Shown here in pieces: positions 13,262-17,264 of a stretch of 42,254 bases of DNA (its first letter is position 1; every line of letters starts with the position of its first letter). A program made the translations under genes and the position numbers. The notes below the pieces were generated by a model. That model did no database searches and was not told where the DNA came from. It saw only the letters and a program-made list of their open reading frames with translations. Location: assembly GCA_026985095.1 (NCBI GenBank), contig JALSQW010000048.1:1-42254 (forward strand), written 5' to 3'. The stretch is from Acidimicrobiia bacterium (GTDB taxonomy: Bacteria; Actinomycetota; Acidimicrobiia; Spongiisociales; UBA5794).

Positions 13262-14068
13262 ATGGATGGCCGTCGGCGGGATCTGGTCATGGCGGGTGCG
13301 CTGTGGATCGTGTTCGTGATCCTCGGTGTCCTGCTGGTGCGGAACTTCGATCTCCTCCCGGCGCTTCGCAGCGAAGAAGGCGCCGAGGTGGATCTGGCGT
13401 TCAACACGCTGCTTTTGTACACCGTGCCCGTCTTCGCGTTCGTGCTCACCGTGCTGGTCTACGCGATCTTCCGCTGGCGGGTCGCCGACCCCGAAGCCGG
13501 CGACCAGACCCGCGACGTCCGAGCGTTCTCCTGGGGCTGGTTCCTCGTCTCTGCGGCCCTGGCCACCCTCATCTTCTTCACTCCCGGCCTGTCGGGGTTC
13601 CTCGCCCTCCAGTCGGCCTCGGCCCAGGAACCGGACCTCACCATCAAGCTGACCGGTGTGCAGTGGCACTGGGACGTCGAGTACCCCGACGCGGACATGG
13701 CGCTCGAAGCGCCCAGGGAGATCCTCCTCCCGGTCGATCGCCGGATCCGGTTCGAGCTGACATCTCGCGACGTGATCCACGCCTTCTGGGTTCCCGCCTT
13801 CCGTCTGAAACAGGATGCGATCCCCGGCGAGACCACCGAGCTGGTCGTCACCCCGACCGAGGTCTCGAGCTTCGAAGACGACTTCAACGTGCGGCTCCAG
13901 TGCGCCGAGCTGTGCGGCACGGGACATGCGCGGATGTTCCTGCGGATCCGGGTCGTCGAGCCCGACGAGTTCGATGCATGGTTGGCCGGCGGCCCGATGG
14001 ACGGGATGGACATGGGCGGCGACGGCGGTATGGACATGGGCGGCGACGGCGCCCACGACGAGGGCTGA
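13262..14068 (+). CDS. ctaC: Cytochrome c oxidase subunit II with Met-rich tail
   Basis: 268 residues from ATG 13262. Hydrophobic segments lie at about 10-27, 50-70 and 92-115, one more than the usual two; the first may be a signal sequence. The extracytoplasmic cupredoxin domain has the complete CuA site: H173, C214, E216, C218, H222 and M225 (C-A-E-L-C-x3-H-x2-M), and the aromatic Q-W-H-W-D-V-E-Y electron-entry motif. There is no fused cytochrome c domain. The last 24 residues are a Gly/Asp/Met tail with G-M-D-M-G-G repeated twice; the same motif occurs in the cupredoxin at the end of this operon. The protein accepts electrons from cytochrome c and passes them to subunit I. Confidence 0.93.
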   Translation: MDGRRRDLVMAGALWIVFVILGVLLVRNFDLLPALRSEEGAEVDLAFNTLLLYTVPVFAFVLTVLVYAIFRWRVADPEAGDQTRDVRAFSWGWFLVSAALATLIFFTPGLSGFLALQSASAQEPDLTIKLTGVQWHWDVEYPDADMALEAPREILLPVDRRIRFELTSRDVIHAFWVPAFRLKQDAIPGETTELVVTPTEVSSFEDDFNVRLQCAELCGTGHARMFLRIRVVEPDEFDAWLAGGPMDGMDMGGDGGMDMGGDGAHDEG

Positions 14069-14078
14069 GGAGGGATCG

Positions 14079-15941
14079 ATGGCGACGACGGCACCACGAC
14101 TCGAACGGCAGATCGGCGCATCCGGTCTCCCCTACGCCATCAGGGGACTGATCTGGGGCCTGATCGGCTTCGCCCTCGGCGCGGTGGTCACGATGCTCGT
14201 CCGGAGTCTCGCCGGCTCGCCCGCGTGGCGCACCGACCAGATGGTCGTGATCGGGTTCCTGTTCTCGGTCCCGGCGTTCGTCCTCGGGGTGGGCGCCTGG
14301 GAGACCTGGGGACGCGGCTGGGTCGGCCTCGAGACCCTCGAGTACGACCCGCCGGGGTGGCGGCAGTACTTCGGGTTCAACCTCGACCACAAGGTCATCG
14401 GCATCCAGTACCTGGTCACCTTCATCGCCGTGTTCATCCTCGCTGGGGCCGTCGCCATGCTGATGCGCACCGAGCTCATGGATCCGGGTCGAACCGTTCT
14501 CGGCCCGGCCGGCTTCACCCGGTTCATGTCGCTGCACGGCTTCCTGATGGTGCTCGTCGCGGTGACCGCCGTGCCCGGTGCCTTCGGCAACTACGTGATG
14601 CCGATCATGGTGGGCGCCGAGGACATGGCGTTCCCGCGCCTCAACGCCCTCAGCTTCTGGCTGTGGCCGCCCGCCGTGCTCCTGCTGCTCTCCAGCCCCT
14701 TCGTCGGGGGCTGGGACAGCGGCTGGACCGGCTACCCGCCGCTGGCGTCGGTCAACAACCTCGGCCAGATCTTCTACGCCCTGGCGTTCGTGGTCGGCGG
14801 GCTCTCGTCGATCGTCGCATCGGTCAACTTCCTCACCACGATCGTCAAGATGCGAACGAAGGGCCTCACCTGGAACCGCCTGCCGATCTTCGTCTGGTCG
14901 ATCCTGCTGACCGGAGCATTGAGCCTGTTCTTCACCCAATCCGTCGCCGTCGCGGTCACGATGGTGACCCTCGACCGGATCTTCGGCGCGGCGTTCTTCG
15001 ACCCGCTCCTCGGCGGGGCGCCGGTGCTGTACCAGCACATCTTCTGGTTCTACTCGCACCCCGCCGTGTACGTGATGGTGCTGCCGTCGCTGGGTGTCAT
15101 GCTCGAGATCCTGCCCGTGTTCAGCCGCAAGCCGCTGTTCGCCTACAAGTGGGCCGTCGGCGGGATCATCGGGATCAGCGTCCTCAGCGGGGTCGTGTGG
15201 GCCCACCACATGTTCACCGTCTCGGCGCTGTCGGACGCCAACGCCGGGTTCATGCTGTCCACCGAGGCGATCTCGGTACCGACCGGGCTCGTCTTCCTGT
15301 CGGCGATCGGGACGATCTGGCGGGGGAAGCTGTGGATGAAGGTGCCGATGCTGTTCGCCCTCGCCATGGTGTTCAACTTCCTCATCGGTGGTATCACCGG
15401 CGTGTTCCTCTCGGACATCCCCGCCGACTTCCAGCTCCAGGACACCTACTGGGTCGTCGCGCATTTCCACTACACGATCGTCGGCGCCGGCATCTTCGGC
15501 CTGTTCGCGGGCATCTACTACTGGTTCCCCAAGATCACCGGGCGCATGTTCGACGAGCGGCTCGCCAAGGTGCATTTCTGGATGATGTTCGTCGGCTTCA
15601 ACGTCACGTTCCTCCCCATGTTCTGGCTCGGCTTGAACGGCATGAACCGGAGGATCGCCGACTATCAGCCCGACCTCGCACCCGTGAACCTGTTCGTGTC
15701 GCTGGCGGGGTTCTTCCTCGGCACGAGCTTCCTGGTGTTCCTATGGAACTTCGTCGTCTCATGGCGGAACGGTCCGCCGGCGGGATCGAACCCCTGGGGG
15801 GCGCGGACCCTCGAGTGGGTGACCACCTCGCCACCTCCGAAGTTGAACTTCGACGGCGAGCCCGAGGTTCTGGACGATCCCTACGACTTCGCCCCGGATG
15901 CTCCGCCCCACGCGGTGCTCAGGACGGGAGGGGAACGATGA
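14079..15941 (+). CDS. ctaD: Cytochrome c oxidase subunit I, A2-type
   Basis: 620 residues; ATG 14079 follows GAGGAGGG. Two extra N-terminal membrane helices (about residues 22-75) precede the usual twelve. Haem and copper ligands are visible: low-spin haem H153 and H464, CuB H327, H376 and H377, and high-spin haem H462 (A-H462-F-H464-Y). Helix VI reads F-Y-S-H327-P-A-V-Y331: it keeps the cross-linkable Tyr but has Y-S-H-P instead of G-H-P-E, the signature of A2-type haem-copper oxidases, which lack the D-channel Glu. In helix VIII the motif P-T-G-L-V405-F appears where most A-family enzymes have P-T-G-x-K, so the K-channel Lys seems absent. It would reduce O2 to water and pump protons in the cytoplasmic membrane. 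Its TGA overlaps the next ATG. Confidence 0.93.
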   Translation: MATTAPRLERQIGASGLPYAIRGLIWGLIGFALGAVVTMLVRSLAGSPAWRTDQMVVIGFLFSVPAFVLGVGAWETWGRGWVGLETLEYDPPGWRQYFGFNLDHKVIGIQYLVTFIAVFILAGAVAMLMRTELMDPGRTVLGPAGFTRFMSLHGFLMVLVAVTAVPGAFGNYVMPIMVGAEDMAFPRLNALSFWLWPPAVLLLLSSPFVGGWDSGWTGYPPLASVNNLGQIFYALAFVVGGLSSIVASVNFLTTIVKMRTKGLTWNRLPIFVWSILLTGALSLFFTQSVAVAVTMVTLDRIFGAAFFDPLLGGAPVLYQHIFWFYSHPAVYVMVLPSLGVMLEILPVFSRKPLFAYKWAVGGIIGISVLSGVVWAHHMFTVSALSDANAGFMLSTEAISVPTGLVFLSAIGTIWRGKLWMKVPMLFALAMVFNFLIGGITGVFLSDIPADFQLQDTYWVVAHFHYTIVGAGIFGLFAGIYYWFPKITGRMFDERLAKVHFWMMFVGFNVTFLPMFWLGLNGMNRRIADYQPDLAPVNLFVSLAGFFLGTSFLVFLWNFVVSWRNGPPAGSNPWGARTLEWVTTSPPPKLNFDGEPEVLDDPYDFAPDAPPHAVLRTGGER

Positions 15942-16495: not shown

Positions 16496-16505
16496 GGAGA
16501 CCCCG

Positions 16506-17264
16506 ATGAGCGCATCGTCCTATCGCAGCAAGCTCGGCATCGTCGGCATCGTCGTCGGCCTCGTGGCCGCCGCCTGTACGTCGGTCGGTGCGGCCGAACC
16601 GAACGACGCGGGCGAGGTGGTGGTCAGGATCGTCGACAACCGGTTCGAACCGTCGACGATCCGGGTCAAGGTCGGTCAGCGAGTTCGGTTCGTCATCGAG
16701 AACCAGGGGCGCCACACCCACGAGTTCATGGTGGGCCGCGAGCCGGTACCCGGCAGCGACTATCTGGAAGATGACGTGTGGACACCCTTCGAACAGGACT
16801 TCTGGGAGGGTATCGAGGTCGACATCTCCGGCACCGGGATGCCCATGGGGTTCCCCGGCGTCGAGATGGAGATGGACATGGGCGACGGCCAGATGCAGGA
16901 CGGCCAGATGCAGGACGGTCAGATGCAGGACGGTCAGATGCAGGACGGTCAGATGCAGGACGGTCAGATGCAGGACGGTCAGATGCAGGACGGTCAGATG
17001 CAGGACGGCCAGATGGCCGGGGAAGGAGACCACGCCGAGGGTGACGGCGGGATGGACATGGGCGGCGGCGAAGAGGGCCACCACGGTGGCATGGTCATGC
17101 TCCAACCGGGCGACCCCAGCGGCGCCGAGCCCGGCCAGGTGTCCATCATCGAGTTCACCGTCCCCGCCGACAAGGTGGGCGTGTGGGGCATCGGATGCTT
17201 CCAAGAGGCCGGCCAGCATTACGAGGACGGGATGCGAGGCACCTTGATCGTCGAGGAAGCCTGA
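16506..17264 (+). CDS. Lipoprotein cupredoxin with Met-rich pentapeptide repeats
   Basis: 252 residues. The lipobox (V-A-A-A-C, C24) anchors it outside the membrane. A cupredoxin-like fold starts at about residue 37 (V-V-V-R-I-V-D-N-R-F-E-P) and supplies H72 (T-H-E-F). The fold is then interrupted by a Met/Asp/Gln/Gly insert of roughly 80 residues (about 112-192): a P-M-G-F-P and M-E-M-D-M-G stretch, eight exact Q-M-Q-D-G units (129-168), a G-M-D-M-G-G motif and a G-H-H-G-G-M segment. The domain closes with C231-x6-H238-x4-M243, completing a type-1-like copper site. It is the last gene of the oxidase operon, 10 bp after subunit III, suggesting a copper carrier or electron donor for the oxidase. 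That role is inference. Confidence 0.82.
   Translation: MSASSYRSKLGIVGIVVGLVAAACTSVGAAEPNDAGEVVVRIVDNRFEPSTIRVKVGQRVRFVIENQGRHTHEFMVGREPVPGSDYLEDDVWTPFEQDFWEGIEVDISGTGMPMGFPGVEMEMDMGDGQMQDGQMQDGQMQDGQMQDGQMQDGQMQDGQMQDGQMQDGQMAGEGDHAEGDGGMDMGGGEEGHHGGMVMLQPGDPSGAEPGQVSIIEFTVPADKVGVWGIGCFQEAGQHYEDGMRGTLIVEEA
16890..17009 (+). repeat. Eight 15-bp in-frame tandem repeats
   Basis: Eight perfect-length copies of CAGATGCAGGACGG[C/T] start at 16890 and recur every 15 bp, encoding Q-M-Q-D-G x 8, followed by a degenerate ninth start (CAGATG). Copies 2-7 are identical (ending GGT), while copies 1 and 8 end GGC. This is the pattern expected of recent slippage-driven expansion between two older border units. 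Confidence 0.97.

Follow-up and report, generated by a model that had tools for sequence, protein, structure and literature searches.

Met-rich segments shared by an AcoP-type cupredoxin and subunit II of the A-type oxidase encoded beside it in an Acidimicrobiia bacterium

What does a cupredoxin do for the cytochrome c oxidase with which it is encoded, and what are the Met-rich segments for that the two proteins have in common? The question is raised by a 42,254-nucleotide contig of an Acidimicrobiia bacterium (JALSQW010000048.1, assembly GCA_026985095.1; hereafter, the window), in which positions 13262-17264 run exactly from the start codon of the subunit II gene (coxII) through the stop codon of a cupredoxin gene. 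These positions hold a compact four-gene operon on the + strand, coxII-coxI-coxIII-cupredoxin, with intergenic gaps of 10, -4, and 10 bases (Table 1). A first-pass annotation had proposed that the cupredoxin could pass copper to the CuA site of subunit II or donate electrons, with the arms that carry a Met/Asp/Gly motif on both proteins as the points of transfer. We found that this feature is real and conserved, that the cupredoxin belongs to the AcoP type, and that the system as a whole is a new version of what is known from AcoP and does not represent a separate class.

A cupredoxin of the AcoP type

AcoP was the nearest solved relative of the fourth-gene product, both by sequence and by predicted fold. 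A profile of nine homologues returned AcoP of Acidithiobacillus ferrooxidans as its top match (7.7e-15). The predicted cupredoxin fold, in which 119 residues reached a predicted local distance difference test (pLDDT) score of at least 90, likewise placed AcoP first in Foldseek (8.5e-10) and in VIA-align (Z 18.0, root-mean-square deviation 2.9 over 129 residues; next protein 12.9). The ligand set H72, C231, H238, and M243 was invariant in 20 homologues, with a shorter loop in L070 (C-x4-H by inspection), and it matches that of AcoP, namely, H85 and C159-x6-H166-x4-M171. The two proteins are also alike in having a membrane anchor, a gene inside an oxidase cluster, and a long segment outside the fold that lies between its two halves (residues 125-190 here, "region-2" in AcoP). 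The excerpted text of PMC4059628 puts the long region-2 in the same place as the insert described here and reports AcoP homologues of two groups that are encoded in oxidase gene clusters. They differ in that AcoP is anchored by a transmembrane helix, whereas the window protein has a predicted lipid anchor (by inspection, a VAAAC lipoprotein signal whose Cys is residue 24), and in that the extra segment of the window protein is a long Met/Asp/Gly repeat. The window subunit II, furthermore, bears a Met-rich tail, a comparison that does not extend to subunit II of A. ferrooxidans.

The role of AcoP for its oxidase is still debated, with stabiliser, electron entry, and copper handling as the options. 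Oxidase binding and a green copper site are further criteria for the AcoP type. AcoP is described as copurifying with its own oxidase and as exchanging electrons with cytochrome c4 (PMC5982212), a chaperone-like role is suggested for it (PMC7463520), and acoP is reported to be induced by copper in Acidithiobacillus (PMC7463520). Electron donation and copper handling are, in other words, both ideas that had already been raised for AcoP. With the operons described here, Acidimicrobiia and Chloroflexota, represented by metagenome assemblies, join the groups that have oxidase partners of the AcoP kind. Searches of the open-licence PMC literature for Met-rich subunit II tails or for such cupredoxins in these groups led to the papers cited here, and an absence from that literature is weak evidence of novelty.

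The subunit II that would be served by this cupredoxin passed the TIGR02866 cut-off and has complete CuA ligands, spaced C214-x3-C218-x3-H222-x2-M225; residues H173, C214, E216, C218, H222, and M225 were invariant across 15 aligned rows. It has no cytochrome c domain. Five PF00116 matches were found in the genome, and the subunit II on contig C19 carries a CxxCH motif after its CuA domain.

Table 1. Features of the oxidase-cupredoxin operon, with positions in the window.
Feature	Position	Strand	Basis
coxII, cytochrome c oxidase subunit II	13262..14068	+	TIGR02866 CoxB 170.7 bits, cut-off 147.7; PF00116
Met/Asp/Gly-rich C-terminal tail of subunit II	13985..14065	+	Sequence, pattern matches, low model confidence at residues 247-268
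GMDMGG of subunit II tail, first copy	14003..14020	+	
GMDMGG of subunit II tail, second copy	14027..14044	+	
coxI, subunit I, A-type, second gene	14079..15941	+	TIGR02891 615.4 bits, below cut-off 670.75; YSHPAVY motif by inspection
coxIII, short subunit III (185 aa), third gene	15938..16495	+	PF00510 80.5 bits
Fourth gene, AcoP-like cupredoxin (predicted lipoprotein, Cys24)	16506..17264	+	PF13473 36.1 bits; AcoP best by profile and fold
First type-1 copper ligand, H72	16719..16721	+	Invariant in 20 homologues
Disordered Met-rich cupredoxin insert, residues 125-190	16878..17075	+	pLDDT mostly <50; homologue alignment
15-bp tandem array encoding DGQMQ, 8.8 copies, 98% matches	16884..17015	+	Tandem Repeats Finder
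GMDMGG of cupredoxin insert	17049..17066	+	Pattern match 17052-17065
Type-1 copper loop C231-x6-H238-x4-M243	17196..17234	+	Three residues invariant in 20 homologues; spacing as AcoP C159, H166, M171

Met-rich arms on both proteins

The motifs that had drawn attention to the operon were all present: GMDMGG twice at the end of subunit II, and GMDMGGG, MEMDMG, and GHHGGM in the cupredoxin. Subunit II ends in ...GPMDGMDMGGDGGMDMGGDGAHDEG, hence the two copies of GMDMGG, and its final 27 residues are AGGPMDGMDMGGDGGMDMGGDGAHDEG. In the cupredoxin, the insert separates the two conserved halves of the fold and holds, besides about nine DGQMQ units, the motifs GMPMGFPG, VEMEMDMG, GGMDMGGGE, and GHHGGM. 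Searching the entire 2,931,632-base genome with a DNA pattern for MDMGG (ATGGAYATGGGNGG) gave exactly three matches, all within the coxII and cupredoxin genes, and the reversed control pattern gave none over the same 2,931,632 bases. In the 10 operons whose arms are both complete, MDM was counted 22 times among the tails (3.5 on average after shuffling) and 18 times among the inserts (2.9 after shuffling), with 0 of 2000 shuffles reaching the observed count for either arm. MDM is thus enriched about six-fold over shuffled arms on both proteins, and the sharing of the motif goes beyond chance. Met made up 21% of the tails and 18% of the inserts, and such arms were present in two phyla, with differing repeat units.

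The two arms of an operon were also compared with each other. In the window operon, the longest DNA stretch common to tail and insert was 20 bases. Over the same 10 operons, the likeness of tail and insert in matched versus mismatched pairs gave p values of 0.065 for tripeptides, 0.015 for shared DNA, and 0.015 for shared residues, which are raw across three tests, ignore kinship, and are not used here as evidence of co-evolution. The G362 cupredoxin runs off its contig end and was excluded from these comparisons. AlphaFold gave most of the insert (residues 125-190) a pLDDT below 50. Confidence was low as well at the tail end of subunit II (residues 247-268), which is consistent with a disordered tail and goes no further because that model was mediocre overall (mean 65.4, 7 sequences). 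The DGQMQ array appeared to change quickly in copy number, with about 9 units in the window and 11, by inspection, in the same-genus genome G001.

Tail and cupredoxin across related operons

A cupredoxin-first search of named genomes yielded 24 loci, hosted by Acidimicrobiia and other Actinomycetota metagenome-assembled genomes (MAGs), by Caldilineaceae, Anaerolineae, and other Chloroflexota MAGs, by Candidatus Thermoflexus, and by a culturable Neobacillus, sp. PS3-12 (locus L073), in which the gene pair lacks the arms. The order coxII-coxI-coxIII-cupredoxin was kept in Acidimicrobiia and Chloroflexota. To lessen the bias of starting from the cupredoxin, we used a subunit II profile with the tail trimmed off, a profile that was itself seeded on cupredoxin-bearing operons. 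It produced 30 matches above a clear gap (257 versus 165 bits) in 395 genomes of the class and 17 matches in 400 Chloroflexota genomes; without the truncated G038:C17, these 47 matches left 46 operons, where tail and cupredoxin occurred together in 8, the tail alone in 0, the cupredoxin alone in 5, and neither in 31, with 2 at a contig edge. Six operons reached via the cupredoxin were then added, giving 52 with the corresponding counts of 11, 0, 8, and 31, and 2 unclassified operons at contig edges (G038:C341 and G031). Three assignments enter these counts. G711 was classed as tail-less because its profile match is split and its fused cupredoxin domain mimics a tail, so that the 2x2 counts became 11/0/8/31 instead of 11/1/8/30; L078, L080, L082, and L083, tail-less operons in which a short cupredoxin without an insert lies some way downstream, were counted as having no AcoP-like cupredoxin; and the two contigs that carry the G399 operon were paired through identical ends of subunit II.

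None of the 11 tail-bearing operons of the 52-operon set lacked the cupredoxin, and the cupredoxin was present in 8 of 39 classifiable tail-less operons, at least 5 of these 8 having a clearly Met-rich insert (G274, G021, G404, G399, and G401). The first-pass annotation had named operons with only one of the two motifs as the finding that would speak against its pairing: such operons exist on the cupredoxin side, on which count a strict one-to-one pairing is rejected, and the reverse case did not occur. Two genomes, G077 and G095, contain two operons each, one with tail and cupredoxin and one with neither a tail nor an AcoP-like cupredoxin. The association of tail and cupredoxin gave a Fisher value of 2e-6 on 11/0/8/31 with kinship ignored, which overstates the evidence because there were few independent gains or losses of the tail. 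The subunit II tree needed two changes for the tail and the subunit I tree three; in the latter, the 11 tail-bearing rows grouped with G274, G021, and G401 at modest support (85/78), and all 14 members of this group have the cupredoxin. A history of one tail gain plus losses is about as good a fit as two gains, an independent-pairs test found too few pairs available, and about one to three evolutionary events underlie the association. Adjoining the oxidase operon of L061, we also observed another AcoP-like cupredoxin (9607-10380, - strand), which is divergent and has an insert rich in His, Asp, and Glu.

Relatives without the tail offered a further view of where such a cupredoxin would act. 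In three of them, L081 (G103), L118 (G649), and L120 (G711), which belong to the same subunit II clade, PF13473 (Cupredoxin_1) is fused to the C-terminus of subunit II, at the position where the Met tail sits in the window protein. These proteins resemble the window system in having a cupredoxin after the CuA domain, and they differ from it in that the domain is fused rather than separate, has a plastocyanin-like C-x2-H loop, and lacks Met-rich arms. By the usual logic of fusions, they suggest that the cupredoxin acts next to CuA. Together with the likeness to AcoP and the adjacency to oxidase genes in two phyla, this supports the earlier proposal that cupredoxin and oxidase act together at CuA.

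The companion argument, that the cupredoxin passes copper because the operon has no Sco, CtaG, or Cox17-like gene, did not survive the search of the whole genome. Its premise is correct for the operon and the genes on either side, but the source genome encodes Sco (three clear matches and one weak), PCuAC (on contig C24, adjoining one Sco), and Caa3_CtaG (on contig C19), with no match to PF04442 (CtaG_Cox11). Because CuA chaperones are encoded elsewhere, the cupredoxin is not needed for that role, and its designation as a chaperone from the absence of these genes is rejected. Sco was found in 9 of the 11 tail-bearing genomes and PCuAC in 8 of the 11; G028 and G362 are tail-bearing and showed matches to neither, at a completeness of 79% and 78%. 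G021 (L062) and G274 (L061), both nearly complete, have a Met-rich AcoP-like cupredoxin, no Sco or PCuAC match, and no tail.

Electron transfer, copper handling, and repeat expansion

We tentatively favour a reading in which the cupredoxin is an AcoP-type partner of the A-type oxidase that supplies electrons to CuA and stabilises the enzyme, while the Met arms act as a soft Cu(I)-binding buffer. An electron-transferring and stabilising partner is preferred because AcoP is the nearest relative and because no cytochrome c is fused to the window subunit II. The membrane-anchored cupredoxin would dock on subunit II at its CuA domain, its type-1 copper would hand electrons to CuA, and it would stabilise the oxidase. 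Met-rich segments bind Cu(I). The insert and the tail may accordingly be described as putative Cu(I)-binding arms at the interface, which would most likely buffer copper locally, protecting the two exposed copper centres and keeping them filled. Delivery of copper to CuA via the arms is possible. A more elaborate version, in which the arms serve as a private path for the exchange of Cu(I), with the insert catching Cu(I) and docking on the tail so that CuA is loaded or repaired and the cupredoxin is electron donor and copper supplier in one, appears distinctly unlikely. Electron donation is the better-supported half of the first-pass proposal, as an analogy to AcoP rather than a direct demonstration.

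Several observations weigh against the favoured electron-transfer reading. An AcoP-like cupredoxin is missing from 31 of the 50 classifiable operons of the clade, which speaks against any general requirement. Met counts of tail and insert were uncorrelated (rho 0.26, p 0.30, n 18, with the unmeasured G481 insert entered as zero). Transfer from AcoP to its oxidase is itself unproven according to the excerpted PMC5982212, and docking and transfer by the window protein are argued by analogy. A pure electron carrier, lastly, would have no need of Met arms.

Two rival explanations centre on copper. If the cupredoxin were a dedicated CuA chaperone, its insert would take up Cu(I) and pass it to the subunit II tail and on to CuA. 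The Met/Asp motifs common to both arms beyond composition, the lack of tails without a cupredoxin (0 of 11), the nearly complete genomes G021 and G274, and the chaperone-like role suggested for AcoP in the excerpt of PMC7463520 all fit this idea. Yet G021 and G274 have no tail, at least five Met-rich cupredoxins are paired with a tail-less subunit II, and Sco, PCuAC, and Caa3_CtaG are available in the source genome, as Sco and PCuAC are in most tail-bearing genomes. The known CuA copper chaperones PCuAC and Sco, whose target would likewise be this CuA site, belong to other families: the cupredoxin matched neither PF04314 (PCuAC) nor PF02630 (Sco), and PF13473 was the sole domain reported. We regard this explanation as quite unlikely. 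A CopI-like copper-tolerance shield of the oxidase, in which excess Cu(I) would be trapped by the arms and oxidised or held at the type-1 site, with no electron transfer to CuA, seems unlikely but not far-fetched. CopI (NF051440) was the best NCBIfam match of the cupredoxin (E 6.6e-8, against 1.8e-11 with the homologue from G021), and CopI of Rubrivivax gelatinosus, which serves copper tolerance, likewise consists of one cupredoxin domain and has an internal flexible segment rich in His and Met, reported in the excerpted PMC13308877 to be crucial for copper resistance; the copper induction of acoP (PMC7463520, in excerpt) points the same way. However, the match of 32.5 bits is far below the family cut-off of 280, no His-rich N-terminus of the CopI kind was found (no His between Cys24 and H70), the gene belongs to an oxidase operon and none of the genes directly around it is for copper efflux, and AcoP is closer in structure, in a result list that held no CopI structure and is not a head-to-head comparison.

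The arms might, alternatively, be mostly low-complexity expansions by repeat slippage, of little function beyond solubility or oxidant scavenging, which we consider improbable. The near-perfect 15-bp array and its differing copy number between two same-genus species are in keeping with this reading, as are the wide range in Met count of the tails (5 to 24), uncorrelated with that of the inserts, and the low model confidence for both arms. Against it stand the Met content of both arms, the six-fold excess of MDM in each, the presence of arms in two phyla although their repeat units differ, and the lack of any tail without a cupredoxin. The operons of two phyla that have, lack, or fuse the cupredoxin, with or without a Met tail, form a natural series with which these roles could be separated.

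The operon is flanked by a cyclopropane-synthase-like gene upstream and by isocitrate lyase downstream. Subunit I is extended at its N-terminus by about 95 residues, which include two hydrophobic segments. Elsewhere in the window, directly after an open reading frame ending at 23109, we observed a GC-rich, partly palindromic 37-bp direct repeat (23143-23230; 2.4 copies, 96%).

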